From Isoetes taiwanensis (taxonomy: Eukaryota; Streptophyta; Lycopodiopsida; Isoetales; Isoetaceae), in assembly GCA_021234155.1 (NCBI GenBank), contig JAJEKV010000072.1:2996299-3060298 (forward strand): a stretch of DNA of 64,000 nt, read 5' to 3'. Position 1 is the first letter of the stretch. Each line of letters opens with the position of its first letter. Both the position numbers and the translations under genes were made by a program. This document shows, in pieces, positions 3,186-31,011 of this stretch. Under the pieces are notes generated by a model. The model was not told the origin of the DNA. It saw only the letters and a list, made by a program, of their open reading frames with translations, and did not search any database.

Positions 3186-3555
3186 CTGAAAAAATTCAAT
3201 ACTACAATTCAAACCTAATATATACACAACGAACTCAGAAGACAGAAAAACATTCCATAGATACAGGAGGAAAGATATAAAAAGATATCGTACTAAATAT
3301 ATCTTGCAAACAGTGAGATCATTCGTTCAATTTTAACCTCAAATGGCAAACTTATACACAGTTCTAATACATGGGCATATATGTGTCCTCACAAATATGG
3401 CAGATGTGAAACGCATAAAGAGATATGAATGTGTGGAACACGCATGTACATATCTTCCATGTTAAGAGTATTATCCTACAATATTCTACCTTATTGTACC
3501 ATTGTGGTATTTAAGTACTCGTCTACATGCTCTCAATAAAAAGATACAATTATGC

Positions 3556-8983: not shown

Positions 8984-9025
8984 TTTTAATTTTGGGTGCC
9001 TTGTGAAGGCTAGTACGAGCGTTCG

Positions 9026-9079
9026 GCTCACATGAAGCGAATTGGGCTGGGGCATACAAATTGTTCGCGCCGTGCGATC
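9026..9079. repeat. Degenerate split-palindrome cassette (weak)
   Basis: GCTCACATGAAGCGAA is followed after 22 bp by TTCGCGCCGTGCGATC, directly at the start of the transposase-like frame. It resembles the cassettes at 11.7-25.2 kb, but the spacer is shorter and only about 10 of 16 arm positions pair. Confidence 0.4.
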
Positions 9080-11734
9080 CACGCAGTATGGAAGCTCCAA
9101 ATGATGTGTGGATAAGGATCCAACTGACTCACGAATATGCTCCAGTCTTCAATCGCAAAAAACGAGGTCTAGAAAATAAGAACTTAGACCTCGACGTGTT
9201 GCGTCTTGCAGGCTCAAAAAGTGTCGACATCTTGGCGGATGGCAGTTTATATCCATTGGATCCGTTGAGTGGCAAGAAACCGTCATTTCGGGACGTTTCA
9301 AGTTTAGTCCGATTTTGTGATGACGGTAACTCTGGCCTCCTGGGATATTGTGAGAGATTGAGAGAGGATGAAGGCATTCGGAATCGAATACCGTTCCTTG
9401 AGATGAGCTGCTTCCGATTGTCACAAGAGAATTATAACTTAAACCAGCAGCTCTTTTTTCTCTCGCTTCATTACTCCACTGTAATGAAGGAAAGGAATGA
9501 CGGCTTCGGGAGGGAAACCTCTTTGAGATACGAAGTGGACAAGTCTAAATTAGTGATAGGGCAGCTGCAAGAAAAGATCCAAAAGCTCGAAAGAGCAAAC
9601 TTTGGGCTTCAATGTAGGTTAAAGAATTTGAAGAAAACACCCCTTGGCTTGCGAGAAAGGAAGAAGCACTTTCGACTGATAGAGGAACTGAAGTTTGGAT
9701 TAGGTGCATTCAGACGCAGGGTCACGGCCACAAGGTCCGTTTACAACACTAGCAAAGGCCAATCAAGATCTGGGAAAACTAAAAGCAATCTTGGTTACAT
9801 AGTGAAGAACCTAGCGACAAACAGGGAGATAGTGGACATGATTTGTTAGCCCTACAACTCTTCTCTCAAGAAGATGGTATTGGAAATGGTACTAGGAGAG
9901 ATCTACAAGACGCTAGAAGCGACAGATGTACAGACTGTTTGTGACGATGCAGGCATCAGTAGGCTTGGTTACCGTTCTCTATTCAAGTCATTCCACGAAG
10001 CGTTGAAAAGAATGGGCACAAAAAAAGTATTCGCTCCACGTCCACAAATTGTTGAGAATACAAGGGTTACAAGGACAAATATGGTGTATGCCATATTAGG
10101 AGAGATGCACCACGTTGAATGTGCTGGTCCTGCCATAGCCATAAAGGATAAGAATGGCACGGATTGTTGTGATATAGTTGGATTGAATGAACGCAATAAT
10201 CTTTGGATTGGCCTGGTTAGTCTCTTACAATTCCTTGTCAAATATTATGACTCAACAGTTGCAGAAACTAATGGTGAGATTGAAGTTTGCATAAAATTGG
10301 ATGAAATGGAACTGACCATCTTTGAGAAGTATGAGAGTGTATCCGTTGTCATCATGAATAGAGCAATTGAGAATGCAATTGCACATGCTAAATCAAAGAG
10401 CAACAAGAATAATAAAAAAGATGTAGAGGTGACGGACGAGGAGAAGAAGCGTGCCGAAAAATGATTCCCTTGTCAATCTGAAGATGACACCTGGTGGTTA
10501 GGTCTCTTTAAAGTTCAGAAAGAAACCCACGAGGTATTGAAATGGGTGTTCAATCAAACTGACATCCCGAGTCTAATATCTAGATTCGAGGGAGGGGAAA
10601 AATTGCAAGTAGATCACTATGGATCTTACAAAGTAATTTTTCACTTGGCGTCTGATTTAAAACTGAGAAAGCAATTACAACATAAGTGGAGGAGGACAAG
10701 GAACATGCAAAAGTTGTTTGTACTGCAATCATGCAAGGAAGTCAAGTACTGGGAAGACTGTTTCAACCTTGTCCCTTAACCAAGCAAATGCTCCTAATAG
10801 AGGAGAAAAAGATCCCAAGTTCCATGGCATTTTCTCCATTCCATTAGCGAGGGTTCATATCTGCACTTTGCACGGCTTTGTAAGAATCATTGACAAGATG
10901 ATATTTTTGAGCTGCAGATTCGTGTGGAACATTTCAGACAAGAAGAGAATAGACGAAGGAATTCGTAGAGTTGAACATGTTCTATCAGAAGCAGGTTTGC
11001 ATGGTGGCAATGTAACATTAGAGCTCGATGAGAAATGGGCAGGAAGAACAAGTGTGCCTCGTAAGGTGTCAATTGGAGGGGTGAAAGCTCGACGCTTCAT
11101 AAAGAATCATAGAGAGGCTCTGAACAGAAACCAGATGGGAGAAAAGGTCTATGAATTTGGAAAATTGCTGGTTGATGCGGAGCAGGACCGCCGATGGCGT
11201 TCGTTCAGCATTGAGGAAAAAAAAAGCATGGGATGCATTGTCTGAATTGTTCCCATACATTCAGAGAATGGACCTCACAAGAGAAGATGCAGAAATGTTC
11301 GTGCAAGCGAATAACAAATTTATTAGGGCTTACATAGACGCATGGGGAGAGAGTGAAGTCACGCACTACTTGCACATCTTTTGGGCTCATGCACCTTGGT
11401 TTTTTAGGAAGTATGGAAGCCTAGCAGTGTGGAGTGCACAAGGCATGGAGAAGTCACATAAACAAGCTAAAATAGCCTTTCATCGTTAACACTCAAAGAG
11501 GGGGGTGGAAATGTGGGAACCAACCCTCTAAGATAGATGACAGAGTGGTTTTATAGAAGGGCGATGGCTAAATACGACAAGAAGGTCGCTTTAAGGAGCT
11601 ACCCAGAAGTCGTAAACACCATTGGCATAATGCTGAAGAGAAAACGGAAACTTGCTTGGCAATATTCTAGGGACCCACTAGCATCGCAACAGTGGAGATC
11701 TAAGAGACAAAGAATTGGTAAAGTATACTTGTGA
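9061..11734 (+). pseudogene. Broken DDE-like transposase with coiled-coil N-terminal region
   Basis: A series of long + strand frames in different phases covers this stretch, so the gene is broken at about five places. The first segment (9061-9849, 262 codons) is helical and charged, with a coiled coil around residues 175-220. The later part carries features in the order seen in a family of putative DDE transposases best known to me from sponges, hydra and oomycetes: IKLDEMELT, DTWWLGLFKV-like, then QVDHYGSYKVIFHLASDLK, then FHGIFSIPL-x-LHGFVRIIDKM, and near the end YLHIFWAHAPWFFRKYGSL followed by QGMEKSHKQ. The D, D and E in the first, second and last blocks could be the catalytic triad; that is inference. 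Split-palindrome cassettes lie at both ends. It could instead be an unrelated element-encoded protein. Confidence 0.45.
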
Positions 11735-11744
11735 TGTATATTAT

Positions 11745-11811
11745 GTTCACACGACGCGGAGTACTTGCCTCCAACCTCGTTTGCACAACGGTAGCTTCGC
11801 GTCGTATGATC
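11745..11811. repeat. Split-palindrome cassette 1
   Basis: Left arm GTTCACACGACGCGGA and right arm TTCGCGTCGTATGATC are inverted copies separated by 35 unrelated bases. It sits just after the last transposase-like frame. Confidence 0.8.
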
Positions 11812-11818
11812 TTATTTG

Positions 11819-11884
11819 GATCATACGGTGCGAACAGTGAAGTTCGCTATTGCTTGCATTTATGTGGCTTCGCGTCGTGTGATG
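11819..11884. repeat. Split-palindrome cassette 2, adjacent to cassette 1
   Basis: Left arm GATCATACGGTGCGAA and right arm TTCGCGTCGTGTGATG with a 34-bp spacer. It begins 8 bp after cassette 1 ends; the spacer shares no evident similarity with that of cassette 1. Confidence 0.8.
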
Positions 11885-11988
11885 CTTTACAAGATAATAA
11901 TAAAAAAAGGTTACTTTTGATTAAAGTTGTGAAAATTGTTAGATTGAAAAACAAAATACAACGACTCATTGTTGCTCCAGTGCGACCT

Positions 11989-12711
11989 TGATACGGCACT
12001 AGCTTGGGGGCGTGGCTCAGAGGAATGATTTGCAGAGACAAACACAGAGGCAAGGGCTTTAGATAGATATCTTGTAATCTTGTTTAATCCCGTGATAGAA
12101 GTCTTAAAGGTTTTAAGGAAAGGGCTATTGAAATCTTAACCATTGAAATAATTAATAAGCCAAGTGTTAATACAAACAAAACGGTCGCTACAGTTGTAAC
12201 GATCAGCGGCAGATAGAATTGCCGAACTAGTTAACTTTTTGCTAAAAAGGGTCGGAAGTGCCCTGAATTATCTCATAAGCCATTGTAGCAGGCCAGATTG
12301 CAGGAAAAAGGGCTCCGGCTCCAGCGAAAAGGTAAGGGGAAGGCCGATTTAGCTTGCAAATACCTTTTAGAAGAGCATAAAAGCTCGACCTGTTGAATTG
12401 AGGGAGCGGGAGGTGATTGGTATAAGATAGAAGACTGACTGCTGTAGATCCTCTGTTAATTTGTGGTTGAATAGAGTGGTTCCCTTAGCTCTAGAGAATT
12501 CTTGTGAATCCCAGAGAGGCTATCCAGTTGGTTAGCAGACTCTCAGAGTTGGGAAGAGATTGAGCCAGACTTGTCGTGTTTGCAAATCAGAGCCCGGTTG
12601 GGTGGATAAGTAGTGCCAGAAGAACTTGACCTGGAGTTCCAGGTTGATTGAATTAACTGTGTTTGTTAATTTTGCAGATAGATTTGCAGATAGAGAAGAC
12701 GGTTCGTATCA
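11989..12711 (+). repeat. 5' LTR
   Basis: A 723-bp direct repeat opening with TGATACGGC and closing with CGTATCA, followed within 3 bp by the primer-binding site. Confidence 0.9.
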
Positions 12712-13924
12712 ATTGGTATCAGAGCGTAAGTTGATCTTGCTAAAATAATTTTGTGTTAGGGCCTTACAACGTTTCCAGGTTTTGTTCTATCCAGATTGAG
12801 TGCATTACTGGATAATATCTTTATGATGTGCATTCATAGAAAAAGGAAAACTTGGAGGACAGAAGAAAGCTGTAGAATGTAGATGCTGCAAGCCGTTCCT
12901 TTAAAAAAAGAATGTCGTAGCAATCTAATGGTTTAACTGGGATACCTACGGCAGTAAATTATTCCACTAAATTATGGAAATGAGTCGTGAAAGCATATGT
13001 GAATTGCAGTTGTTTAATAATAGAGAGCAAATTATTGCAAAAAGAAAATAATGAATGTTGCTGGCATAAAGGAGAAAGAGAAGTAGTTCTATGTAAAATA
13101 AGAGATAAATTAAAGCTGTGGAATATGCTTGCACTGCATGATGCCGCAGTGAAATGGTAGTTATGCTTGAAGCTCCATAGGGTTGGAGTTAACAGAAAAT
13201 ACTTGCATCTTAATTTTACCTGAGTTTTCTTTAAGATGTGATAGCAAGGTCAGTATGCTGCTTTGTTTGTGGCTTACAGAAAACTTGCAATTCCTTTGTT
13301 TGGAGACATTCTAACTTCATATTTGTTGTTGATTGCGTATTCATGAGGTTCAAATGAACAAAAGGGAAATGAAACTGCTAAGAAACAAGTAGCACGACCT
13401 GTTGCAGAGATTGCCCATGTTCGTGTTGCAGAAGAAGTTCCCGAAAGTTCCCACGCTAACTTTGACAAGGAAAAGGCAGAAGCCTGAGGGAGAGAGTACG
13501 AAATTCAGACTGATTATTTGAAAGATAAGTAAAGTTAAACGTCTGTATAGACATGTGATTGTTGAATGGTTTGAGCATAGTTTTGATTTGAGTTAAGAAA
13601 GGAGTTTCTTTTTCAAATGAATGTTGCTCTAGAGTTTAGAAGGGGGCAACTGTGACTGCAGCACAGAAGCCAGACCTTTAGAATTGTAAGGCAGATGGTA
13701 AGTTTACCAGCCTAGAAGAAATCATTTCAAAGCAGATAGTTAGGTGACTAGCTTAGAAAGGTGGTTTTGAAGAAATCCTTTCAAAGCAGATAGTCAGGTG
13801 ACTAGCTTAGAAAGAAAGGTGGTTATTCCAGCAAAGCAGATACTCAGTTGACTAGCTTTGGGAAAGATGGTTACTTCCTTAAGGCAGATGATCGAGGACG
13901 ATCAGCCTTGGGAAGGGAAGGAAT

Positions 13925-14653
13925 TGATACGGCACTTGCTTGGGGGCGTGGCTCAGAGGAATGATTTGCAGAGACAAACACAAAGGCAAGGGCTTTAAAT
14001 AGATATCTTGTAATCTTGTTTGATCCCGTGATAGAAGTCTTAAAGGTTATATTTAACTTAAGGAAAGGGCTATTGAAATCCTAACCATTGAAATAATTAA
14101 TAAGCCAAGTGTTAATACAAACAAAACGGTCGCTACAGTTGTAACGATCAGCAGTAGATAGAATTGCCGAACTAGTTAACTTTTTGCTAAAAAGGGTCGG
14201 AAGTGCTCCAAATTAGCTCATAGGCCATTGTAGCAGGCCGGATTGCAGGAAAAAGAGCTCCGGCTCCAGCGAGAGGTAAGGGGAAGCCTGATTTAGCTTG
14301 CAAATACCTTTTAGAAGAGCATAAAAGCCTTCGATCTGTTGAATTGAGGGAGCGGGAGGTGATTGGTGTAAGATAGAAGACTGACTGCTGTAGATCCTCT
14401 ATTAATTTGTGGTTGAATAGAGTGGTTCCCTTAGCTCTAGAGAATTCCTGTAAATCCCAGAGAGGCTATCCAGTTGGTTAGCAGACTCTCAGAGTTGGGA
14501 AGAGATTGAGCCAGACTTGCCGTGTTTGCAAATCAGAGCCCGGTTGGGTGGATAAGTAGTGCCAGAAGAACTTGACCTGGAGTTCCAGGTTGATTGAATT
14601 AACTGTGTTAGTTTTGCAGATAGATTTGCAGATAGAGAAGACGGTTCGTATAA
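13925..14653 (+). repeat. 3' LTR
   Basis: The second copy of the same repeat, preceded by the polypurine tract and followed by the GACCT duplication. It is slightly longer than the 5' copy. Confidence 0.9.
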
Positions 14654-14658
14654 GACCT

Positions 14659-15120
14659 CTTCTTCATTATCTTCATCATCATCATCAGCTTCATCCTCGT
14701 CTTCGTCTTCGTCTCTTCTCCTCAAGCCAGCAATCACCCTATCCAAACGTTCCTCCAATCTGTCCACCATCTCTTTGTACATGTCCGGCTGTCGTCCCCT
14801 TTGCCACAACGTTTTCTTCTGAATTAGCAACCTCGTTCTTTGTCCTGCTCCACCTCAGTGCAGTTGTTGGGACATAACCTTTCCCTCCTGTCCAGCCTTC
14901 TGTTCAACCGCCTGATATGCCTCTCCTGGCTACGAAGCATGAGAAGGTTGAATTCATTTTCTTCTTCTTTCTGCTGAATTGTAATGGCATTCCTCTTTAG
15001 AAGATCGTCTTGCTCCTTCAACCTCTTCATTAGAACACCCAACACTATGTCAGAAGGGAGTTCTATCCTCGGGTATTTTCCCTTATCAGCGGTAGAGGAT
15101 GTGGAGGCCATAGATGACAA
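14659..15120 (-). pseudogene. Coiled-coil protein A (paralogue of the genes at 15.8 and 16.7 kb)
   Basis: It begins MSSMASTSSTADKGKYPRIE and continues with LPSDIVLGVLMKRLKEQ. A heptad-rich Glu/Lys/Arg coiled coil follows over about 70 residues, then a second helical part (MVDRLEERLDRVIAGLRRR) and an Asp/Glu tail. The Ser-rich start, the ELP-x-DI-x-L-x-x-x-MKR-x-KE block and the coiled coil are shared with gene C at 16.7 kb, so the two are paralogues. The frame is not continuous, and the LTR element lies in the acidic 3' end. Function unknown; a structural or adaptor protein of the surrounding block is a guess. Confidence 0.5.
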
Positions 15121-15339
15121 ATGGGAGGGACGTTAAGATTATAGAAGTGACGGGAGCGAAGACTCTAACCAGCGGAAGGAGCACAGTGCAAGGACCTCAA
15201 TTTATACATATTAGCGCTTGAACATATTAAATCTGATCAATTGCCGTCATGCGTGTCGGCGGATTACAATAATTTGTCATGAGAACATTAATTAATGGCT
15301 TGTCTGGCTGGAACACATTAACTATTCTAAGTACATTGT

Positions 15340-15404
15340 ATCACAACACGCGAGATCTGCACACGCACTTTAAAAGCTTATGAAGGGTTTCGCTTCGTGT
15401 GATC
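15340..15404. repeat. Split-palindrome cassette 3
   Basis: Left arm ATCACAACACGCGAG, right arm TTCGCTTCGTGTGATC, 34-bp spacer. It lies 220 bp upstream of coiled-coil gene A and between genes A and B. Confidence 0.75.
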
Positions 15405-15775
15405 TGTCTTGTCATTCTCTCTACCACGGATATTGAAAATTAAAAATTGGAAACGTAATATTTGGCACATTTTTAAAAACTTTTCCATTCGCGAAATAAA
15501 ATAATTAAAAACATTAAAAAGACGGCCCCTCTAGGAGGAGCCGATGCCTATGATCGGCCGGGCAAGCTTCGGCTGGAGGACATTGGTAATTTTTTACGCT
15601 CCTCCAACATGATTACTGCGCGCTTAACCCCCGTTCTCATACTCTGCAACCTTATCTTCCCCTCATCGAGTTGATCTCCGGGCAGCCTGCCCAAGCCGAT
15701 TCTTGACCCCTAAGCCTCTCTTGGAGGTTAGATCTCGTGGCGCCAATTCACCGGTCTATGGCAGCCCGTTGATTG

Positions 15776-16054
15776 TCAGCGCACTAAAATCACCTCCCTA
15801 TAGAAGGCGGCCTTGTCCTCCGCAACCGGCTTGGCGATGTCTTCATCATTCTTTTTCTTTTCGTATAGGCGGATCTGTTCCTCAGCTTCATCACGAATGT
15901 TCTTAATTTCCTTCACCAGAACTTGAGACAAGATCTCGACAGGGATGGAACTGGAGCTGGAGGCCATTGAAAGAGATGAGAACGAAGGGGAGATGGCTGA
16001 GGGCGGATGTGGTAGAACAGGAGATGGCGGATAGGAGAAAACAATGGCGTCCAA
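15776..16054 (-). CDS. Coiled-coil protein B (short)
   Basis: Open for 92 codons; the Met at about 15967 (MASSSSSIPVEILSQVLVKE) is the better start because it aligns with the MAS-Ser-rich starts of genes A and C. The P-V-E-I-L-x-x-V-L-V-K-E-I-K block corresponds to ELP-x-DI-x-L-x-x-x-MKR-x-KE, and a short charged helix follows. The product is much shorter than the other two, so the C-terminus may be lost. No homologue or function is recognised. Confidence 0.4.
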   Translation of the reverse strand: MDAIVFSYPPSPVLPHPPSAISPSFSSLSMASSSSSIPVEILSQVLVKEIKNIRDEAEEQIRLYEKKKNDEDIAKPVAEDKAAFYREVILVR

Positions 16055-16479
16055 CGTTTTATATAGAAACTACAGATACGTTGGAATCTACGGTTGCGAG
16101 TACCGATAAAGTCTGAATAATAATCCTACGAGGCGAAATTATAGCATGCAATTAGGCAACGGTAGCCTATACGTTCGCATCATGGGATCTGTCAGATCCC
16201 AGCTGTATGATATGCAGGCCCATCTAATCAATCCTTTGGTCGTACAAAAGACGGTGTTATTGTGGCAGCGCATGCCACGTCCTTGGCATGACATTGTCAT
16301 CCGCATGCCACGTATGTGAGTAGACGTCGTCATCCACATGCTACGTGCTTTCACCCTAGATATGACTAATTCGCATTTACCTGCAAGATATCACATAATC
16401 TAGCTAGATGTTTGTGTTACAGATAGTTTTCTATTAATAAATCAGGAATTTGTACATACAACGAGGTGTACATTATGGA

Positions 16480-16546
16480 GATCATACGACGGGAAATCCA
16501 TTGATTGCTACCTAATTGCAAGCATGGCATTTCGCATCGTGTGATC
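16480..16546. repeat. Split-palindrome cassette 4
   Basis: Left arm GATCATACGACGGGAA, right arm TTCGCATCGTGTGATC, 35-bp spacer. It lies between genes B and C. The 200 bp before it holds short direct repeats of CATCC(G/A)CATGCCACGT at about 16260-16345. Confidence 0.8.
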
Positions 16547-16663
16547 TTTAATAAAACAAAACATACATTTGAACAAGAGAATAAATATATCATCGAAAAT
16601 AATAATATATATATAAATCATCAAAAACTTCTCATTGAAGCAAAAAATACATAGATAGAACGG

Positions 16664-17143
16664 CTAGGGATCTTCATGATCCTCTAGCTGATCTTCATGA
16701 TCCTCTAGCTGAAGTCTTAAAGCTGCGTTCTCATCCTCCGCAGCTCGGAGCTTCTTCTCCATTTCTTCTAAGGCCTGCGAAATATTGTGGGTAGTTTCAA
16801 CTGCCTCGGCCCTGCGGCTAGTCGCCTCTTGGTACATGGCGAATGTTTCGGCGAGCTCAATGTCTCGCTCATGCAGGAGCGCCCTCGTGAAGGCTAATCT
16901 GTTGACCGCCTCAATATTCTCGGCGACAAGATGGCTGTTTTGATCCTGGATCTCTTTGAATCTCTTCATCATCACTACAAGGGTGATGTCCACGGGGAGC
17001 TCTTGGCGCGGGGGAGTGCTATCTTGGCGTGGTCGCTTGCTAGAGGAAGATGGAGATGCCATCGGAGCGATGAGAATGCAGAAAATGGAAGTGGAAAATG
17101 AGCAGAAGTCGGAAGGCGGAAGAGGATCGGAGGTCGAAGGCAA
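16664..17143 (-). CDS. Coiled-coil protein C (intact paralogue)
   Basis: An open frame of 159 codons. The likely start is the Met at about 17062 (MASPSSSSKRPRQDSTPPRQ), since the preceding 27 residues are unlike the paralogues. Then come ELPVDITLVVMMKRFKEIQD and an unbroken coiled coil rich in Glu, Ala and Arg to the end. The last residues are a small tandem repeat (LEDHEDQ/LEDHEDP) from a duplicated 21-bp unit at 16671-16712. It is the best preserved member of the A/B/C set. Cassettes lie just upstream (17189). No nuclease, zinc or enzymatic motif is seen; the KRPRQ run could serve as a nuclear localisation signal. Confidence 0.55.
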   Translation of the reverse strand: MPSTSDPLPPSDFCSFSTSIFCILIAPMASPSSSSKRPRQDSTPPRQELPVDITLVVMMKRFKEIQDQNSHLVAENIEAVNRLAFTRALLHERDIELAETFAMYQEATSRRAEAVETTHNISQALEEMEKKLRAAEDENAALRLQLEDHEDQLEDHEDP

Positions 17144-17188
17144 GATAGAAGGTCTTCTATTTATAAGATAGATTTCGTAGTAGCTTGA

Positions 17189-17252
17189 GTCACACGACGC
17201 GAAGGATGCCGTTGGTCAGGAAAATGGACCGTTGTTTCTCGCATCGTGTGAG
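17189..17252. repeat. Split-palindrome cassette 5
   Basis: Left arm GTCACACGACGCGAA, right arm CTCGCATCGTGTGAG, 34-bp spacer. It begins about 45 bp upstream of the gene C frame. Confidence 0.75.
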
Positions 17253-17307
17253 GAATAAATAAATAAATTATTTTTTTCCAATAATATTTCATTTCTTCCA
17301 CAGAAAT

Positions 17308-17370
17308 ATCACACGATGCGAAAGCTCGTGTTCGTCAGAAAATCAGACTGATGTATTTCGCGTGGTGTGA
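17308..17370. repeat. Split-palindrome cassette 6
   Basis: Left arm ATCACACGATGCGAA, right arm TTCGCGTGGTGTGA, 34-bp spacer. It starts 55 bp after cassette 5 and ends about 100 bp from the stop of the next - strand frame. Confidence 0.8.
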
Positions 17371-17472
17371 ATAAATATAAATAAAATAATTTTTATTAAT
17401 AATTTCGGTGATACAATCTATACATAAGTAATTTTACTGATACAAGTTCGAAAATATATAACTTCCAATTTT

Positions 17473-18857
17473 TCAAGCTTCGTCGTCAATTTCATGCTTT
17501 TTCAATCCCCTGCCGCACTGATCCAACAAGGCAATGACTCCCATGTTATCGACCCCAGCTTCCAACCTTGGGTGATTCAAGCCAGCAGCTAAAAAATTTA
17601 ACATATTGCTCGCCCGCAGACCAGCTTGGTCGTCAAAATATTGTAACACAACATCGCGCCGAATTGTTATCACCCTTTCAGTGTTTGATGCCAATTGGGA
17701 ATGGTTCCCGAACATGCATAATGCACGGATGTAATAGACAAACTCTGCACCTTTTGGACTGAAAGTTCTGCTGTAGACGATTATCTCCCCATTAACGATG
17801 TAACAATGTCGAGTCCTTCAATCTTTCCTGTCCCCGCGTGCATGTCGGCAAGAAAAATCATCTACTTCCCACAAATAAGACCCCTCAAGATTATCTTCTT
17901 CACATTTCTCCTCATCCATGAGGCTTATGCTGCCGCGATTGACTGAAGGCCTGCCAAACCTGTAGATCCTGTTGGCAGTTTTGCGCGGAGACGCTGAAAT
18001 TCTTCTTCCATTGGCATATTCGCCTCCTCTTGAGCATATCGAGATTCCAGCCTCTCATAGACTTCTTTAAGCTTTATAGCATTGCCGGTATAAGAAGACA
18101 CTTCAAACATCTCTTTGTCCAAGTCCTCTACAAAATCTAGGCCTAGGTTTACCCATTCGGCCAAGGTACTGATAAGCTCGTCTTCCCTAGCACACATTCG
18201 TAACAAAGACGGGTTCCTCAGTATATCACTTAGCAATACGTATTATTTGCCTTCCACTAAAATTGGCGTTATGTCAGACAACTTTTTTTCATCCTCATCC
18301 TCATCCTCATCACCTTTAGAATCATCTTCCTCCTCTGGTTCACCCAAGGCCAGTGCGTCGATGCCAAAAATCCTACATTCTTGCTCTTCTTCCTGTAGAT
18401 CTATCTCCATTTCTACGTCATAGTCAGCATCATCACACATAACTGACCCCCCTTGGCTTAAAGATTTCATTGTTTCCAGTGTATCTTCGGTTTGGCCGAG
18501 CAGAATGCAATAACTAGCGAATGCAAACGACAAAGAGATATAAGTTACCTTCTTAAGTACAAGGACGCAGCCAGGAGAAGCCCGCTGCACAGCATTCTTG
18601 AAAAAAGTCTTCGCTGCTTGCAAATGGGAAGCCGCTTCCTCTAGAGCTGGTTTTGGAATCCACGACCCAGGAACATCTGCAAAGGACGTCCGATGAGCCC
18701 AAGCGGTCCGGCTGAAAGCTAAAGCAACCTCACGATAGCATCCAAGCTCGCTACTGTCTCCCATAATCTCCAACTCCTTACAATAGAACGGATAAATCAC
18801 AGCCGGCGCAACTTCCTCGTTGTCATGTGGGGCAGATGCATACCATTCCAGGAACAA
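17473..18857 (-). pseudogene. Unknown helical/acidic protein genes, closely packed
   Basis: Three long - strand open segments (18857-18243, 18236-17925 and 17921-17473) follow each other with almost no gap. The first has an Ala-rich helical domain resembling tandem helical repeats (PALEEAASHLQAAKTFFKNA), then a very acidic tract (EEEDDSKGDEDEDEDE). The second is helical and Leu/Glu-rich. The third has ERVITIRRDVVLQYF and a Leu-rich helical end. There are probably about two breaks, or else two genes packed back to back. The upstream end at 18857 runs into unrelated DNA, so the first gene is truncated. No family is recognised. Confidence 0.45.
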
Positions 18858-20006
18858 CCAAGCCCAATGTCGTTGGGCTGTTGAAAACTTGCCAATAATG
18901 ATTCTAAGTTTCTAAAAACACCATTATTCGTCGATAACTGTCGTAATTGTCTATAGCAACCAAGCATAACATTGCTGGGTTTAAGTTGAAAACTTGCCAA
19001 TAATCTTTACTCAATTCAATTCATACTATGTATTATTGCCTTGATGCATTCTTTGTAAATGTGGTCTAGATCTCGTCCTATGAAGTAGTATTAGAATATA
19101 TTGAAGATTTTTCACTTGTATTAGACATAGTTCTTGAACATAGTCCTGGTCCACCTCTCTGCTAAATGATGACATCTATGTCACCTTTGTCCAAAATACA
19201 TGGATGAACGACCATAATTTATGTATATACATATGTTGTTAGTTGCACTTTTGATGAATGCAACATTTGCAAATGCTTCATAACTAACTCTTGCAAGAAG
19301 GAACTTCTTAGTAAAGAAAAGCATCCCATCTTGCAACATCGTAGAATGCCTAGGCGTGCAAAAAAAGGCCGCTTGAAGAGAAATTAATTAAAGGCCGACG
19401 AGACTCCATAAAAAAACTGTCATTACTCTGGAACACCCACAACTTCGGAAGACAGTCACTACAGTTTCAGCAAGACCATCAAGAAGTATATTTCATGAAT
19501 AGAATAAATGACTTTGATATAAGTAGATAGCAGCATAGTTAAACAGGCCCTTCTCACGCAAAAGTCCCATCCTCTCCTATGAAGTACTTAAAAAGCCATT
19601 AAGCGAGCAAAGTACAACTTCAGAAAGCTACAACCAAGTGTGCTGCTCTCCTGTAAAGTAAATATGGATTCATATTTCAATTGGTAGAATTGTTGGAAGT
19701 GCCACAGGAGCTCAAAACATTGACAAAAGTGATTCATGGAAGGTATGTTATATACAACAAAACTAACATGCTAATTCATTCACCAGCCGTAGTGAGTTTA
19801 AAGTACAATTAGTGAGTTTGCACAATATTATAAAGTACAATTTAAATGTTATTCAACAAATTTTAGGGCAGGTTTGTGATTAAGTATTCAGAGCCTAAAT
19901 CTATGCTTCAAATTGAAAGTGGATGGACTATTAATAAATACAGTTGAGCCACGAAATTGTAGAATCCACCAAGGCATCAGCAAAGATCTGAGTATGTAAA
20001 ATGTAC
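18858..20006. other. Mostly non-coding; 3' part of the neighbouring - strand gene
   Basis: An imperfect direct repeat (CAACCAAGC then GTTGAAAACTTGCCAATAAT) occurs at 18853-18900 and 18957-19003. A - strand acceptor TTTACTTTACAG followed by a short open stretch at about 19620-19655 may be the last exon of the 20-21 kb gene. Nothing else is recognised. Confidence 0.3.
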
Positions 20007-21115
20007 CTTCAATGACAAAAGTTGACGAACTTGCATTTTGTAGCCACAACATGCAGCCCATGTACACAGATCCACTTTGTGTTGACTTTGTCTCTGTTTT
20101 ATGATAGAACTCAATGCCAGGTTGCTTCTGAATTCTGAACTCAGCAGATTCATTACCAGAATGCCTGTACATTCTACTGCAGACATGCCCCTGCTGTCAG
20201 TCTATGAAAAGGTTAGATCTGTAAACACAGGTAATTGTTTGAAGATCCATAATGCTAGCTAAGATAATTGGACACTTGCCATGAAAAGATTAGATCTGAC
20301 AACACAAATAACTGGAAACTTGCATGCTATTCATAAAAAAAATCAATATGCAATAATACCTCAGAATATCTGTTTTTGTTTCAAACTGCTTATGATTTTC
20401 GAGTTTTAAGAATAGAGTTTGGCTGTTCGAGGATGTAATTGGCATTTGGGCCTCATACACATAATGGGATGTCATACTAAAATTCCAAATCGGACTTGCA
20501 GCATGGCAGTAAATGTGCAGTTAAACAACATCTTAAAAATGCATCCTTGTGTACTCAAGCTTTGAGCTTTTTCTGATTTAATCATTCTAGATCAGTTGAT
20601 TTCCTTGTCCCCTTTCTCTAGAAGTGCTTGTTTCCCTGAATATTAATTTATTGAAGATAAGTTTAAGATGTTGTGTTGAGTCGTTTTGAATGGGGCTAAA
20701 TTTTGTCTTTACCTTGATACCGTGGTGGTAATCATATTCTTTCACTCGCTTCACATAGGAAGGAAGCAAAGGCATGCTTATATTCCCCATTGCTATATTA
20801 GGTACTTTGAATAAACTGGAAACACCAAGACCTTGAAAAGGTACAGCACTTGTTCTGGTCCATAAGAAAAATCGAAAGCAAAGGCTGGTCTAACATCCTC
20901 CATCACCTAGGGTAAGAAGTAGTCGCACATTACCTTACTACTTGAAGCCGTTCTAAATCCGTAGGTGTTTTGCTGCTGCTGTTGCCGCCTTCACCATAGC
21001 AGACCGCCATAGGCATAGCCACCTTGAAGACATTTCGTCCTGCAAAACTGCCATCACTAGAGCTGAAGAGGAGATCGCCAATCGCCAGAGCAAGGCCTCT
21101 TTTCCTCTTGGCCAT
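20007..21115 (-). CDS. Spliced host gene of unknown function (at least four exons)
   Basis: Likely exons on the - strand are 21115-20934 (starts MAKRKRGLALAIGDLLFSSS), 20854-20713, about 20490-20360 and 20176-20007. Introns begin GTAATG, GTAAAG, GTATTA and GTACAT and end in AG; the first is only 79 bp. Exon 1 joins exon 2 in frame (LQVVR-TSAVPFQGLG), and exon 3 joins exon 4 in frame (DILSRMYRHSGNESAEF). The exon 2 to exon 3 junction does not keep frame with the acceptor I can see, so a site is mis-set, an exon is missing, or the gene is decaying. The peptide is not a repeat or transposon type; I do not recognise the family. The RTE LINE begins about 125 bp upstream of the start, in the promoter region. 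Confidence 0.5.
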
Positions 21116-21239
21116 CGAGCTTCTCTGGATGTTTTTTGTTTTTTTTAGGGTGAAAAAAGAAGATGGATTTGCGTGCGAACCATCGGATTTGCCAAAAGAA
21201 TGACAGCCGTCCGATCTAGGGCGTGGTCCATTACGTAAC

Positions 21240-24200
21240 ATTACAGCAGCACAAGCGGATGGGCAGAGTCATGCTCCTTGGGGTGGAACAGCCCATGCGG
21301 CTGGACCCCCAAGGATGGCGTCTTTGCCGATTGCGCCGGTTAAGTAGGCAGCTTGCACACGCTTTCGATGACGGTCGGGTCACCCGGCCAGACAATTGCT
21401 CCGATGAAAGCGGTATCTTTGACTGCTCATATGCAATGGCCTACCACAATGGCCCCTCTTCCCCCTTGGTACACTTGCGAGGCAGGGGACAATCGGCTAG
21501 CCGAACTAGTGTCGTGGATTATGTCATAGTGGGCCATCGGGATATACACCTTGTCGCCCATTTTCACGTGAAAAGCGGACCCGCCGGGCGAGGAGGTCAA
21601 TCGCATCACCTCCCACTCTATGTGAAGCTGGCACTGCCACCGCCACGCCCTCGGCGTAGCGTAAAGACCTTGCCGCACCTGGGTTGGCGGCTTTGGATTA
21701 TGAGCGCTGAGGGTTACGCCGACATGCTTCGGAAGCCCTCGGCAGTTCTTTGGGGCACTGAGCGAGCAAACCGAGCCGAGTTGGTTGAGCTCCTAATAAT
21801 AGCGCAGGCGGATGCTTTGGGAGACCTCCCCCACGCCAGATCGAGGGCGCAGAACCTTCGTGATAACGATGGTTTTGATGCGGTGTAAGGAACTAAACCC
21901 TTTTCGTCTCATCGTGGATCGGGACATCGCGAAGCTCGGGGCCACCAGCCATTACCGCCTTCCTCAAGGAAACAAAGGCAAGGTACCCGGCAAGGCACCA
22001 AGGAGAAATGTTCGGGCCTATTAGACGCCCACACGAGAACTTTCGGGCGCAGGGGTACTCTGCAGCCGCCACGACCAATGGGAACATCGGCGCGGGTGCA
22101 ATGGGAGCGATACACGCAGCGATTTATGATCTCGAGAACACCGACAGATGTGCCCCCGCGAATACGGCCAATCCCCGGTGATCACGTAAGAAGATGTCGA
22201 AGAGGGGCCGCAAAGGTTCGGCTAATGGGAAGGCAGCAACTTAGGACGACTTACAAGCGGAGTTGCTCAAGTGGGCGGGGCGATAATGGTGCGGTGCCCG
22301 CCCCTTCGCCTTTGTTCAGCGTGGCCGCAAGAGGGTTTTCCCCGGTCATGGACCTGGCGGGGGTTGTTCGATCTACAAAGCGCGGGGACCCATAATCGGC
22401 CCGGCCAATTACCGAACCATCATGGTCATTTCGGTGTTTGCCAAAGCCGCGGCGCGGGCATTCTCGAACAAAGGTAACGGATGGGGCGAGGAAGTGAGTC
22501 GGGCAATTACCCGGGCGGGTTTCCGACCCGGCATTCGACCATTGATCACATCTTCACACTTTCGGGGGCCACGGGTCGAGGACAGCGAGCAGCGTCGGGA
22601 GGATCTGCAGCCCTTGTTTTGTGAACTTTGCAAAAGCTTTGACCACGCGATGCCGAGGAAAAAGTTGTGGGCGAAGATTGCACCATCCGAGGCTCTATGG
22701 ATCTGCCGAACGCAAAGGTACTGGTATCACGAGAGCCGCATTGCACCGAGATGCAACCGGAAGGATGATCATTTGCCGCCAAAGATTGGAGTTAAGCAAG
22801 GTTGTCCTCTTTCACCCACTCTTTGGACTTTACATTGACCGGTTGGAAGCCCGGCTTGTCGCCAATGGGGGATGGTATCTGACTCTTGCACTGTGTCATC
22901 CGGCAGCTCATCTATGCATGATGTGGACCTCTTGGCCCATACACCGAGGGCATGCGAGGCACATCTAGATGCCCCGGACACATTCTCGCCAGCGATGGAC
23001 ATGAGTGTCAACTTTGGCCAAGACTAAGGTGGTCCTCATATCCTCCTCACGCCATCCAAAAAAAAAAGACACCTCGCCACCTCCGGGCTCACTTATTAGG
23101 GGTAGATGGTAGAGGTCACACCCGCCTACAAAGCACGGGGGTGGATTTTCCGCCCTCAATGTATTGGGATGCATCCATTCGCCAGCCGGGTCACCGCCAA
23201 GGTTGGAAGGCGTTTAATGCATAATGCAAAACAATAGTCACAGGCGTAGTCAGATGACCGGGGCCACCGGCCACATTTGTTCCCCGACGGTAGAGCCAGT
23301 TCTTCTGTATGGGGGTCGAGAGATGTGGGTCCCAAAGTGGTATGCGTGGCTTACTTGGAAGCGACTTAGAGTAGGTCCCGAAGGCATTTTTTGACGCTTA
23401 GTGTCCGAGCACTTGGGGTCAAGCCCTCGCCCATATCGATCTTGTTGCGGGAGGCAGGATTCATGCCCCGCGGCATGTGGCCCCTCGATAGATACATTGT
23501 TTATTTCGGAAGGTGGCTAGCATGGTTTACACTCGGCCCCGCGACTTGGCTTAACTTCTGGTGGCGATGAGCCCGCGAATGACTTCGGGCTTGTTGGAAG
23601 GACAAGAGAGCCCGGTGGGCGGGCGTGGCCGAACGTAGACGCTATTACATAGGTGCGCCCAGGTGCACATAGGCGCCCACTGGGATAGGGCCGAGGGGGT
23701 ACTTGGACTCTTGTTTCCTGGGGAAGCTCTCGGATCACCATGCTCTGGAACAGGTAAAGATGGCACACTACAAACAGCACATAAACCCCACCCTGGTTCG
23801 AGGCCTACAACTCTACTTGTGTTCTCAGTTGCCCATGAAGAAGCGCAGGATCATTGCGTCCATTCGAACAGGGGCCCACCATCTTCGGCTTGAGGAGATC
23901 GGGTGGGTTAGAGAGCAGCGCCGGGGACAGGCTTTGTCGGTGTTGCTGGGGTTGTTGAGGATGAAAGCCATGCCTTTCGAGCTGTCCGGCCTATAGTCGG
24001 TCGGTCTCGCCATCGTTCTCTTGGTGCGGCACAGTGCCCCCCTGACGAAGCTACTCGAGACGCCCGTCGGGTTCGATCCCTTGGCTCCTACCTCTAGGAG
24101 GTTTTGGATCTGCGGGCTCACCTCTGCCCTCGGGCGCCTACCTGAGGTGCCGGGAATTCATGTGTATATGTATATGTATATTTGTACAGCTGCCAGCGGG

Positions 24201-24350
24201 CTTGTTGCTGCGACGAGTTTTCCCTCGTGGGGGGGGGGGAGGGGGAGGGGATTTAATCCGGGTAGCAACGGGCTTGCTGCACCCGTGTAATTTGGGTCCC
24301 ATAGGCCGATTGGCCTCCGCGGACGATAAAAGAACCTTCCTTCCTTCCTC
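21240..24350 (+). mobile_element. RTE-clade LINE, nearly full length, GC-rich and decayed
   Basis: In order: the C-terminal part of an apurinic-type endonuclease at about 21.3-21.64 kb (SVVDYVIVGH and then SHHLPLYVKL, where SDH is usual, so the catalytic Asp is lost); reverse transcriptase at 22.4-23.2 kb (GPANYRTIMVISVFAK, MPRKKLWAKI, GVKQGCPLSP); the Cys/His-poor C-terminal region at 23.8-24.0 kb; and a 3' UTR with GGGTCCCATAGGCCGATTGG ending GACGATAAAA and (TTCC)n at 24335-24349. Many frameshifts divide the coding sequence and the N-terminal endonuclease is missing or unreadable. GC content is far above the flanks. The short-repeat tail instead of poly-A is typical of RTE. It has landed beside or within the - strand gene at 24.4-25.1 kb. 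Confidence 0.8.
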
Positions 24351-24471
24351 TGTCTCCATTAGCACTCTTAGCTCTGATAATGGCCATTCGATTTCCATGG
24401 TGGCTGTATAAATGACTTCCTCCCCTCGCCATACTCGAATATCTACCGCATTGGAGTGTCTGCTATGGTCC

Positions 24472-25094
24472 TCAAACGGCTCCCAAAAAAGTTGTGCAGC
24501 CTCTCGTTTTCTGTTTCCTTCGTTCTAGTTGACAATTAACGTATAAATATTGTTTTGGAAGAAAGTATCTGAACTTAAAGGAGGACTTAACTATGCGGCA
24601 CTCAGTTAGTTGACCGGATGATTCGTGGAATCGAACATCCCAGGTCGGAACCAAAAATAAGTCATGCACAAAATCGACAGGGGGCAGAAAGCACGTATAT
24701 GTCTTTGGAGCTTTTCGAACTTCCTGTGCCATCTGGAATATGTTAGCAAATACCTCAAACGGTGTGAAGATTTTGAAACTCATCCTCACGCCTCTGTTTT
24801 TAGACATTCCCACTTGCACCTTATCAGCCAGACATTTCTTCATTGCAATTACATTGTTCTCATTAGTCTGTGGCTTACAAAGTTCACTTAAAGGGGGCAA
24901 TTCAACCGGCCTCAAGCTCGGTTTCCTGACCTTTACGTTGTAATCATGTCCGTAAAACTAGATGCCTATACCCCGCAAGGTCACGGCATCCATACCTTGG
25001 AAAAGGACAATTCCGATGTCTATGTGATACTCGACAAGGACACTACTAATGCTTTCGGCCGGAACGACATCCACGACGTCTGATAAACATAAAC
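24472..25094 (-). pseudogene. Unknown protein next to a cassette, cut by the RTE LINE
   Basis: The - strand exon begins after a TTATTGTGCAG acceptor at about 25095. It reads DVVDVVPAESISSVLVEYHI, DIGIVLFQGMDAVTLRGIGI, one in-frame TAG at about 24958, then FYGHDYNVKVRKPSLRPVEL and on to 24472. A shifted frame continues coding-like (RVWRGEEVIYTATMEIEWPL) down to the RTE tail at about 24350, so the RTE probably interrupted it. The DVV-D-x-V-P start followed by a beta-rich stretch hints at a small globular domain, but I do not recognise it. Cassette 7 lies in the putative intron or promoter immediately upstream, which ties it to the 9-18.9 kb block. Confidence 0.4.
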
Positions 25095-25151
25095 CTGCAC
25101 AATAAATTTGTTTATATACACGTGTCAACGAAAGAAATGAAAAGATAAGGA

Positions 25152-25218
25152 GATCACACGATGCAAAACTGTTTCTACACACATAAATAGCTGACAGACA
25201 GCTTCGCGTCGTGTGATC
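25152..25218. repeat. Split-palindrome cassette 7
   Basis: Left arm GATCACACGATGCAA, right arm TTCGCGTCGTGTGATC, 36-bp spacer. It is 7 kb or more from the other copies, yet the right arm is identical to the consensus. It lies 60 bp upstream of the exon at 25094 and ends 3 bp before the CACTAGAGTTGTC terminus at 25222. Confidence 0.85.
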
Positions 25219-25226
25219 CGACACTA

Positions 25227-26145
25227 GAGTTGTCTCACGGACCCGTTTGGGTTCATCAACCCATATGGGTCCCTCAATCCCTTCTCCATATTAAGGAGTA
25301 CTTCTTCATGATACTTATGAGATTTTAAATATGAACACCTGAATTATATGATTAACTCGAAGTTGTACCACCATATTCAATGGCAAAATAAAATTCTTCA
25401 CACGTTTGGCACAATCGCACCTTGAAATACACTCAATTCAATGGTTTCGATATTATGATATAATCCCATGACACTCAACACGGAATACAAATTTCAAAAT
25501 AACATTAATTTTCTATGAACGTAGCCTACAAATGCTACTCACTTTTCAAATTTCATGTGATTTCATAAAAATTTGATGTATCAATGAGCAAATCATAATT
25601 TCAATCCTTGAAAGACCCAGTCAGGTCCCTAAGGAATTTCTGAAAAACAGACATCCATGAACCATTTCATATCTATGATATTTGAAATAGAATAAGAATA
25701 TGAAGATACTATTATTTTTCAATGGAAATAGATAATAAATACTATACGTCTTGCTAAATGGATTTCATTTTTTCAAAAAGTGGAGTAATACTATGAATTT
25801 TCAAATTTTTGACCCTCGGGGGACCTAACTGGGTCCATAAAGAACTTCTGAACTTCAAACTTTAAGGAATTATTTCTCGAAAATTCTACCATAGATTTTT
25901 CTAATTCTTCTTGTGATAGATTTCCTATATCGTGATTTATAAGATGGAAGAATTAAAATTCCTAGGAAAAATCATATTTGCAAAATAATGTGAGAAATGT
26001 TAAAGACTTTGAGAATAAACTTGACCCCCCACATTATATTTGGTAATAGAAGCTTTCTATATTTTTCATAAATTTTTCCTTATAAGTCGTATTTAATTAA
26101 AGTGGGACTCATTCCATTCCCACTTTTTTTCGGAACCCTGTTAAT
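25227..26145. other. AT-rich non-coding
   Basis: No gene. Two related stretches are visible: GACCCAGTCAGGTCCCTAAGG at about 25614-25634 and GGACCTAACTGGGTCCATAAAG at about 25820-25841, both followed by a similar AACTTCTGAA-like sequence. A small palindrome GTGGGA-N-TCCCAC lies at about 26101-26125. Confidence 0.4.
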
Positions 26146-26586
26146 TTACACAAAAAGGAGCACCCCGACCCGAAAACTATCCTTAATTCGAATTTTTGAA
26201 TAAAACTCTGCATTCAAGCTTTGCTGCAGTTTTCTCTGGTTAGCGAGTCGAGAACAAGAACAATGCAACTGAAACAAAGGAAATTCATTAAAGTTTGAAA
26301 CCAAAGATCTAGTTGAAAAAGAATTTTTATTAATAAATTGAACAGGTACAATGTATTTTACATCGGACGCAGAGACCATGGTGGTCTTCTTTGTCACTCT
26401 GATTACATCATCTTGGTAGGTGGTCCACCTTAGGGGATTAACTAGCGGGCGCTTCTTCCACGCCGAATGTAAGCCTTGGGGCAACCTTTGAAGGGGTGTG
26501 GAATGCCTCACGTGGAGGTGCCTCACGGAGCTACCGGGCGACACTGTCCACCCGACTTCTCCACTCGCCTCCCGCAGACCTTCCAT
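26146..26586 (-). CDS. Hypothetical coding remnant
   Basis: An open frame of 146 codons whose upstream extension (to about 26680, - strand) is Lys/Arg-rich (RRRTKRKSEKLKASCKHC) and whose C-terminal third is AT-rich and probably not coding. GC content is higher at 26400-27000 than around it. No domain recognised. It may be the 3' end of another captured gene. Confidence 0.2.
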   Translation of the reverse strand: MEGLREASGEVGWTVSPGSSVRHLHVRHSTPLQRLPQGLHSAWKKRPLVNPLRWTTYQDDVIRVTKKTTMVSASDVKYIVPVQFINKNSFSTRSLVSNFNEFPLFQLHCSCSRLANQRKLQQSLNAEFYSKIRIKDSFRVGVLLFV

Positions 26587-27012
26587 CGAATATGCTCCTT
26601 CCCCAACCTCCGTGGATGTTATGCAATGCTTGCAAGATGCTTTGAGCTTCTCGGACTTTCTCTTTGTTCTTCGCCGTTTCTTTATCCCGTGGTGTAGCGA
26701 GCAACCTCGACAGCCATCGAAAGCAACCTTATCCCAAAGGCGGGCAAGAGTGTAGCGTGGACCGGGATTCGTGCTGTAAACAGATTTCTTCCGCTTTGAG
26801 CGGGATCGTGCCGCCTGGGCGGTCTCGTGATGCTGGCGGGATGGATCTCGTGGGCGGTGTCGGATCTCGCTGCCCGAACCACCGGAGCAAGGAGAGTATG
26901 ATTAACAATTACGGTGCCATTAGTCAAAAACGAAGAAAAGAATGTTGAAATCAAATTACAATGGAGAACATTCATTCCATACAACCGCATCCAATGACGT
27001 GGGAAGTAGTGT

Positions 27013-27217
27013 CTTTTCGACTTCGAGTCGAGAAAGGCCCATAAAAGTGAAAGTATAAGCATTGCCTTTCGACATTTCGCGAGTCGAGAAAGGCCCGTGA
27101 AACGCAACGTAGAAGCATTATCATAATAGATTGTGGCCGCATCGGTCACAATCAAACATACAAATGGTCTCATCAACGGGACAAGCATGCCTTTTCGACT
27201 CGTGAGTCGAGAAAGGC
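27013..27217. repeat. Three palindromes of the TCGACTCGCGAGTCGA family
   Basis: Copies at about 27013-27037, 27064-27093 and 27190-27217 have the design GCCTTT(C)TCGACT-x-GAGTCGAGAAAGGC. The last is an almost perfect 28-bp palindrome. The first two are followed by a common AGGCCC(A/G)T(A/G)AAA and AAGCATT, so they form a degenerate tandem repeat of about 55 bp. They lie 3' of the phosphatase-like gene. Confidence 0.8.
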
Positions 27218-27516
27218 ATCAAAACTCAATATACAAGTATATTCATTACAAAATGTTCAATACATGTGTTCACGTTTGTTTACAATATTCACACAATTTG
27301 ACTATCCGAAAGCGAGAGGTCACTCTTCTTGTTCACCAAAATATTTGTCGCCCATAGCTTTCATGATCGCCTTGCTCTGCGGATCGGGTTCCGTGAGGCT
27401 CGGATAGTTCCTAATCACACGGGCGCACAAGAATGGCAAAGAGGGATTCGCCAAGGCAGGGACACGGTCAGAAGGACAACCACCTATCCGTCTCTCATAT
27501 TCTTGGTCGATATGGC

Positions 27517-30016: not shown

Positions 30017-30031
30017 GGGACAACTCTAGGG

Positions 30032-31011
30032 TGGTTACCATTTGAGGGCAATTTTGGGAAGCTGTTTTTGATGGAGATTAGCTCTTTGGCCATATCAGAA
30101 GGGGTATATGCATGTCGTATTGTTATACTTTCCAATTTCCGGCCGCTAGAATTCAACTTGAACTCTTTTATCCTACCTATCCAATGTGTCCGCACGTCTG
30201 ATCGCCTTTGTTGCTTAACTCTATGCTCGCCCCTCGTTGATGGCAGCATACTCACCCACGAACCTATTGAGACAAAACCTCCCACTTCTTCACTTTGGGA
30301 GTTCTGTAAATGAGGCAAGAACACAGAAATTATAGGAGACATGGATTGCAGATGAGGAGTGAAGGCGAAAAGGATGCACGTAGAGGCGTCGGAGTGACAG
30401 TACAGAAGTTTGGCGCCAAAATTTGACAAGGGAGTTGGTGATTCTGACAGTAGGCGGTCAAAGTCACCATTATTTTGGGCGGCGAAGTGATTCCCGAAAA
30501 ATACGGGTCATTAATATGGTTGCAACAAAAGCACAGACATCCCCTATGAAAATACGCCATGTGAATGCCAAGTAAGCCTGCTCATTCTTCTACCTGCCAA
30601 CTAATACTGACTTTCATAAAAGAGGCGCAAACCTGATTGGTCGTGGCAAATCTGACGTGGAAATCTTTAACCCAAGATATGAGCCATTTTCCCCAAATCC
30701 GCCCTAATGGATAAGTTTCATCTAAATTGCCACTTTATGCAGTCTCTTTTTTAATTTGAATGCAAGTTGAAGCTTATTGTAACTAATTACTGTAACTGTA
30801 ATGCAGTTTATTTTAATCTAGCAGGTGGTCACATATTTTAAAAACAAACGAACAAAACCATATTAATTATTTTACATTATGTTAAAGCAGGATATCTATA
30901 ATATTCTATGGATGGTTGAGTCTGCTAGCGTTAAACATGAAAACTAGTTCAGTCTCTGTTAGACTTAGTTTGGAATTCACTACGTAATGTTAGACTGCAC
31001 ACTATTGTTCA
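30032..31011. other. No confident gene; promoter-like region
   Basis: Both strands show open frames of 70-140 codons at 30.0-30.56 kb (the best is 30013-30429 on the - strand, basic, no domain), but their overlap and composition do not single one out. The 30.4-30.5 kb part is GC-rich with E2F-like boxes. Confidence 0.25.
30409..30420. promoter_or_regulatory. Palindromic E2F-like site
   Basis: TTTGGCGCCAAA matches the TTTSGCGC half-site on both strands. TTTTGGGCGGCGAA lies 50 bp further on. E2F/DP sites mark S-phase genes in plants. Whether it serves the RING fragment downstream is unknown. Confidence 0.35.

Follow-up and report, generated by a model that had tools for sequence, protein, structure and literature searches.

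Mirror-image arm pairs of near-fixed spacing at gene borders in a putative transposon block of Isoetes taiwanensis

The stretch of Isoetes taiwanensis DNA analysed here (64,000 nucleotides of contig JAJEKV010000072.1, assembly GCA_021234155.1; hereafter the window, in whose coordinates all positions are given) contains, between positions 9026 and 25218, a block in which a decayed transposase-like gene points towards a series of genes on the minus strand: gene 1 (degraded and probably split), A, C and B. Short cassettes, each consisting of an arm, a spacer and the inverted arm, lie between and beside these genes. Eight standard cassettes with spacers of 34–36 bp occupy 11745–25218, and one variant with a 22-bp spacer brings the total to nine. 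An earlier, sequence-only reading had described seven; all seven were recovered within one base of the positions it gave, but the last spacer is 35 rather than 36 bp long, and both the standard cassette at 16122–16189 and the variant at 9026–9079 had been missed. The cassettes, genes and TATA boxes of the block are as follows.

9026–9079: variant cassette, spacer 22 bp; ends 8 bases ahead of the ATG of the transposase relic
9088–11734, plus strand: transposase relic, its frame interrupted by stops and shifts; both limits assigned by eye
11745–11811: cassette, spacer 35 bp; starts 10 bases past the assigned transposase stop
11819–11884: cassette, spacer 34 bp; 81 bases past the gene B stop
11966–15111, minus strand: gene B (MASTSS..., C-terminus acidic), with frame shifts and an inserted long terminal repeat (LTR) retrotransposon that splits it
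15200–15206, minus strand: TATA box of gene B, 133 bases from cassette 15339–15404 and 95 bases before the ATG
15339–15404: cassette, spacer 34 bp; between genes C and B
15776–15967, minus strand: gene C (MASSSSS...), 63 aa, perhaps truncated
16059–16065, minus strand: TATA box of gene C, 57 bases from cassette 16122–16189 and 98 bases before the ATG
16122–16189: cassette, spacer 36 bp; arms with 4 and 2 mismatches
16480–16546: cassette, spacer 35 bp; 117 bases past the gene A stop
16664–17062, minus strand: gene A, intact, 132 aa
17159–17165, minus strand: TATA box of gene A, 23 bases from cassette 17188–17253 and 103 bases before the ATG
17188–17253: cassette, spacer 34 bp
17307–17372: cassette, spacer 34 bp; 100 bases past the gene 1 stop; tandem homologue of 17188–17253
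17473–18911, minus strand: gene 1, 3' part, degraded
24475–25096, minus strand: probable 5' part of gene 1, start approximate
25112–25118, minus strand: TATA box of gene 1, 34 bases from cassette 25152–25218
25152–25218: last cassette, spacer 35 bp; two bases from a CACTAGAGTTGTC-type inverted repeat starting at 25221

The arms are imperfect, with 0–4 mismatches against GATCACACGAYGCGAA. Comparison of all 18 arms revealed a conserved core, TCACACGAYGCGAA, with a weak outer GA, and T3, C4, A7 and G12 were invariant in 18 of 18. A search of both strands of the window at up to 3 mismatches returned 16 arms, every one of them within the nine cassettes, whereas 100 shuffles gave a mean of 0.49 and a maximum of 3. 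At up to 5 mismatches single arms exhibited no excess (48, against 30–53 in 12 simulated windows); arm pairs at this tolerance filled 10 rows, namely the nine cassettes and one cross-pair between neighbours, against 0 in each of the 12 simulated windows, so that the pairs do exceed chance. Neither the arm scan nor the pair scan detected a cassette outside 9026–25218 within the window. The arm centres are 50–52 bp apart in the eight standard cassettes and 38 bp apart in the 9026 variant. The geometry reported earlier as constant thus holds for eight of the nine (spacers of 34–36 bp) and fails in the variant with its 22 bp, and the proposed spacing of five helical turns is loose, since the difference between 50–52 and 38 bp is not a whole number of turns; with spacers of 22 as well as 34–36 bp, helical phasing does not convince.

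Mean pairwise identity among the 16 arms of the standard cassettes was 78%, and the middles of the same eight cassettes lay close to the shuffled level (mean best ungapped identity 0.356 vs 0.344, P 0.048; 0.353 vs 0.344, P 0.13, without the 17188/17307 pair). Of 56 comparisons, that between the middles of 15339 and 25152 was weakly conspicuous (0.50, P 0.0025). When all nine spacers were compared with gaps allowed, 4 of 72 pairings passed P 0.02, with about 1.4 expected, and the tandem pair was among the four. For this pair, 17190–17285 and 17309–17403, which comprise the middles and one flank, are 73% identical over 96 bp (E 1e-7); the earlier description of the middles as unrelated does not apply to this pair. 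Homology that extends across middle and flank implies that at least one cassette was born by local duplication, and the comparison indicates that the arms were kept better than the middles after that event.

The two arms of a cassette drift separately around one consensus. Partner arms differed at 3.63 positions on average, against 3.48 under random re-pairing (P 0.75 for eight cassettes; P 0.82 for nine), and the number of pairable positions including G-U was 13.5 of 16, against 13.6 after random re-pairing (P 0.80, eight cassettes). Position 11 differs between partner arms in eight of nine cassettes and position 6 in four of nine. Predicted folding was better than that of shuffled sequences in eight of nine cassettes (z -1.9 to -5.3; -0.1 in the 9026 variant), as expected from the mirror design alone. 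Inspection of the cassette edges for duplications (offsets -3 to +3, lengths 3–10, nine cassettes) revealed none that was consistent: six of the nine, including the outermost two at 9026 and 25152, lacked any candidate, and the candidates at 11745 (4 bases), 11819 (3 bases) and 17307 (3 bases, or 7 with one mismatch) differed in length and offset.

Cassettes mark gene borders on both sides, the promoter borders most clearly. For five of the nine, a TATA box lies on the minus strand downstream of the cassette, towards the gene and no more than 150 bp away; these are four different boxes, since 17188 and 17307 share one, the latter at 142 bases. The expected number was 0.66 (circular shifting gave P 0.003 and independent placement P 0.00025), in a test that was restricted to the minus strand and designed after the association had been noticed in the sequence, which counts against the interpretation given below. 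On the other side of the genes, cassettes start past the stop codons, after 10 bases for the transposase, 81 for B, 100 for gene 1, 117 for A and 371 for C. No cassette falls behind the ATG of a gene, to the extent that starts are assignable; the earlier statement that cassettes never lie inside a frame is true in this sense, but three of them overlap the upstream part of stop-to-stop frames (9007–9846, 16667–17215 and 24961–25290).

The gene at 9088–11734 resembles, in its predicted protein, a transposase with a RAG1-like C-terminal end. When the C-terminus of the relic was compared with PDB sequences, RAG1 accounted for the 15 best of the 20 matches listed, with a best E of 0.0035, and the Pfam RAG1 family matched it with E 0.005 and 0.01. 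The RAG1 alignment runs via THYLHIFWAHAPWFFRKYGSLAVWSAQGMEKSHK and an H-x4-H region to the E in GMEKSHK, and the RAG1 stretch ends in SEGNESGNK. We take the aligned E to be the catalytic E962 of RAG1, and both H to be zinc ligands of RAG1. In the relic, the last E codon, at 11448, and the H(4)H motif HIFWAH, at about 11373–11390 (counted by hand from that codon), are the aligned ones. The string CLYC, a C(2)C motif found by eye at 10715, lies upstream of the RAG1-aligned part, a second H(4)H string, HICTLH, lies outside the alignment at 10856, and candidate catalytic D codons at 10300 and 10654 were picked by eye. The CMCT clade (Transib/RAG1, Plavaka, ESTA and Lanisha, the last credited to Maumus, McDaniel and Carey, Repbase Reports 2020) is described as carrying C(2)C and H(3-4)H between the second D and the last E (PMC12730594, in its account of the clade). 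The relic likewise has C(2)C, then H(4)H, then the last E; these three motifs and a RAG1 likeness are present in a frame that is broken and with a Pfam score that stays below the cut-off. Lanisha has a moss as its host. As for candidate termini of the CMCT type, the arms read CAC..GTG outwards, and the outermost cassettes at 9026 and 25152 are without duplication.

Among the minus-strand genes, the N-termini of A and B are related on sequence comparison (E 8e-5; none of 2000 shuffles as good). Gene C is probably related to both (over the first 60 residues, A/C P 0.0025 and B/C P 0.0065; at full length, 0.017 and 0.011). A single-sequence structure model of gene A consists of one long predicted helix at residues 26–129 (mean predicted local distance difference score 89, predicted template modelling score 0.46), and its Pfam matches are coiled-coil families below cut-off, the best being HAUS1 (E 8e-5). 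Gene C and the N-terminal 83 aa of gene B gave no Pfam match, the longer frames in the 3' part of gene 1 matched no Pfam family, and a gene 1 piece had no PDB match to E 10. The segment at 24475–25096 would belong with 17473–18911 as a single gene 1; a relic of a long interspersed nuclear element (LINE) and other DNA lie between the two parts, and no 8-mer is shared as a target duplication across the gap 18911–24475.

We consider it likely that the cassettes are paired, oppositely facing, element-borne sites for a DNA-binding protein encoded by the element itself. A protein bridging two sites would fit the separate drift of the arms, the conservation and asymmetry of the site, its mirrored orientation and the nearly fixed spacing, and paired protein-binding sites, one of the options raised by the sequence-only reading, gain support from the arm drift, the near-constant spacing and the nearness to TATA boxes. 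Since the arms are confined to the block in this window, a protein specific to the element is likelier to bind them than one of the host. The spacing is presumably under selection, because spacer lengths stay within two bases of each other although the middles are close to saturation, which ordinary drift by insertion and deletion would hardly leave. An element protein, perhaps one of its small helix-rich products or the transposase, may bind each arm separately and bridge the pair. At cassettes near TATA boxes this protein could switch the genes of the element together; at the 3' borders it could block read-through or mark element ends, comparable to TNPA on the subterminal repeats of Spm/En. 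That the paired sites serve promoter control and/or end recognition in this way is, in our judgement, an even call. What the sequence displays directly is the cassettes with their spacing, their restriction to the block within the window, the places of TATA boxes and stop codons, and the motifs of the transposase; we infer the binding itself, the identity of the binder, the unity of the block as one element and any effect on transcription or transposition.

Several observations weigh against this interpretation. Pfam recognised no DNA-binding domain in gene A, the gene 1 pieces, the gene B N-terminus or gene C. Four of the nine are without a TATA box in the nearest 150 bp; two cassettes, 11745 and 11819, sit between the convergent ends of the transposase and gene B, where a promoter is not expected; and TATA-like strings without a matching gene exist on the plus strand, for example at 17376, 4 bases beyond a cassette. 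The transposase assignment is affected as well: the domain i-Evalue of the RAG1 PDB match was 0.08, the Pfam RAG1 score of 14.4–15.5 bits was below the 25-bit cut-off, and the remaining pieces of the relic had no Pfam or PDB match (PDB search of two pieces, to E 10), apart from weak coiled-coil and bZIP-like Pfam matches of the first piece at E 0.03 or worse. Neither terminal repeats nor a target duplication of the whole element was found, so the label transposon rests on the transposase relic.

A close likeness exists to CACTA/EnSpm transposons (the En/Spm TNPA motif; soybean Tgmt* and Tgm1), which share a short motif, inverted pairs able to form stem-loops and a link to TNPA-like, element-encoded proteins. 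According to PMC2613891, in what it reports of these elements, the subterminal repeats occur as direct and inverted copies of a 12 bp motif in En-1 and of 17–20 bp in soybean elements, the motif varies between families, and the soybean repeats of about 17 bp include inverted pairs that can form stem-loops. The same source, which treats the link to the protein as proven in Spm/En, states that TNPA recognises the subterminal repeats of Spm/En, is required for transposition and can stop RNA polymerase; protein binding to the soybean repeats is presumed there and described as still to be determined, a further point against our interpretation. In Tgmt* the repeats crowd towards the ends, within 159 bp and 732 bp of them (PMC2613891), whereas here single pairs of near-constant spacing stand at gene borders across 16 kb, or about 8 kb without later insertions (rough subtraction). 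The present block also differs from CACTA/EnSpm in that no CACTA transposase Pfam domain was matched in the pieces of the broken frame. The claim that no plant element of this design is known was hence too strong in view of the soybean inverted pairs, clustered at the ends though these are (PMC2613891); among the titles and abstracts listed by our literature search, none described this cassette design. By analogy, the logic of TNPA spread to gene borders would be the simplest account; the inverted subterminal repeats of CACTA transposons would be the known part, and one near-fixed mirror-image site pair at gene borders the new one. If this is true, the block would represent a plant transposon with one near-fixed operator pair at its gene borders, and the whole element could read as the regulon of a single protein. 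The cassette arms could be used directly to probe for intact relatives, and a RAG1-like transposase in a plant element with several genes would be relevant to how the group behind V(D)J recombination evolved.

Among the other explanations, the cassettes might be end-recognition or recombination sites of the transposase, with the gene units being mobile cassettes or nested elements moved by the RAG1-like enzyme. The arms read CACAC...GTGTG outwards, all five presumed genes have a cassette towards both ends (with 15339 shared by C and B, and gene 1 taken as one), the assigned transposase frame is bracketed at 8 and 10 bases, and CMCT elements are reported to have mostly 5'-CA..TG-3' termini with duplications of 2–5 bp (PMC12730594, on the elements it surveys). 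The cassette edges, however, exhibit no consistent duplication (none in six of nine, short candidates in three), and palindromic ends with a 34–36 bp middle are unlike ordinary terminal repeats. We regard this explanation as unlikely. It can be extended to an element made up of modules of one gene apiece, with identical paired recognition sites (CAC...GTG, facing outwards) at the borders of every module and a RAG1-like transposase or a partner that moves, joins or exchanges the modules. Such a plant element, highly improbable in our view, would be the equivalent in eukaryotes of gene cassettes that carry recombination signals. A distinctly unlikely origin is an endogenised large DNA virus, in which the block would be a viral gene cluster and the cassettes its promoter or enhancer palindromes. 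The genes, which are short, close together, of unknown function and equipped with TATA boxes, accord with it, and medusavirus has a palindromic early-promoter motif upstream of 95% of its immediate-early genes and of genes mostly of unknown function (PMC8557863, in its description of the motif). That motif is a compact 24-bp palindrome 40–70 bp upstream of start codons and is absent between convergent genes (0/88 in the same source), where two of the present cassettes lie. Moreover, the block contains a transposase, and Pfam detected no viral hallmark in 20 frames of the window, nor in B and C. Scans of viral contigs, with a reach of close relatives only, found no relative of two downstream proteins (28913–30025 and 27520–28320) or of two pieces of the block (18246–18911 of gene 1 and 9088–9846, the N-terminal part of the transposase); phage records, with the same reach, held no relative of the 28913–30025 protein. 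The exact cassette pattern was absent from the viral contigs, a search that diverged cassettes would escape.

RNA hairpins marking transcript 3' ends, as in Mimivirus and Marseilleviridae, would account for the cassettes 10, 81, 100 and 117 bases after four stop codons and 371 after the fifth, and for the stable predicted folds in eight of nine. In those viruses palindromes between genes are tied to stop codons, and a Noumeavirus transcript is polyadenylated within the hairpin (PMC5413956, for the cases it presents). Here, by contrast, the arm sequence is conserved and the arms are uncompensated (P 0.75, eight cassettes). Giant-virus hairpins have short loops and vary in sequence, whereas in the block the arms keep theirs. 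In addition, cassettes 17188, 16122 and 25152 are promoter-proximal in place, and an Rfam scan of 8800–31000 yielded nothing at the cassettes and a single sub-threshold mir-971 match at 13218–13290. Since an arm resembles its partner no more than it resembles the arms of other cassettes, a maintained RNA stem is not indicated; we find the stem unsupported for want of compensating changes between the arms, and regard the hairpin explanation, including the 16-bp stems proposed previously, as very unlikely. A tiny family of miniature inverted-repeat transposable elements (MITEs) or fold-back elements, inserted several times, is barely probable at all. The inverted arms, the short near-constant size, the homologous neighbours 17188/17307 and the short duplication candidates at 11745, 11819 and 17307 are what such a family might leave, but the middles are near chance apart from the tandem pair, six of nine cassettes lack a candidate duplication, no common length emerges and no copy exists elsewhere in the window. 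Without consistent target duplications the cassettes are not an ordinary MITE, and this dull alternative of the sequence-only reading was disfavoured.

The block has received later insertions. The LTR retrotransposon in gene B (11989–14653) is flanked on both sides by the direct repeat GACCT, a 5-bp duplication; its LTRs are 96.5% identical over 714 aligned positions, and the first is followed by the string TGGTATCAGAGC, which resembles a tRNA primer site. The window also holds a LINE with a DUF4283 open reading frame and a reverse transcriptase; DUF4283 is typical of plants, and on the strength of this LINE we take the window to be plant nuclear DNA. Just left of the block, 8890–9009 is weakly similar to 32640–32763 in the same orientation, and both end in TTTTGGG(T/G)GCCTTGTGA.

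The DNA neighbouring the block on the right is bounded by the CACTAGAGTTGTC repeat pair at 25221 and 30019. This segment, 25221–30032, has inverted terminal-like repeats ACACTAGAGTTGTC / GACAACTCTAGGGT (13/14) and inner repeats ACCCGTTTGGGTTCAT / ATGAACCCATTTGGGT, which enclose a NIF/FCP-type phosphatase frame (27520–28320, minus strand; Pfam E 1.3e-6) and a 371-codon frame without firm family match; no target duplication was found by eye. The segment is perhaps a CACTA-like element adjoining the last cassette. A second, unrelated palindrome family, TTCTCGACTCGCGAGTCGAGAA and variants, is represented by five copies at 27010–28280 and a half copy at 26245. Three of the copies lie past the end of the phosphatase frame and two in its upstream part, before the domain; the design is similar to that of the cassettes, the sequence different. 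Elsewhere in the window, 3540–4047 contains a 19-bp unit repeated in tandem, with the distance from one start to the next constant, and 36327–36807 is a long inverted repeat with 150-bp arms that are 91% complementary and 181 bp apart.

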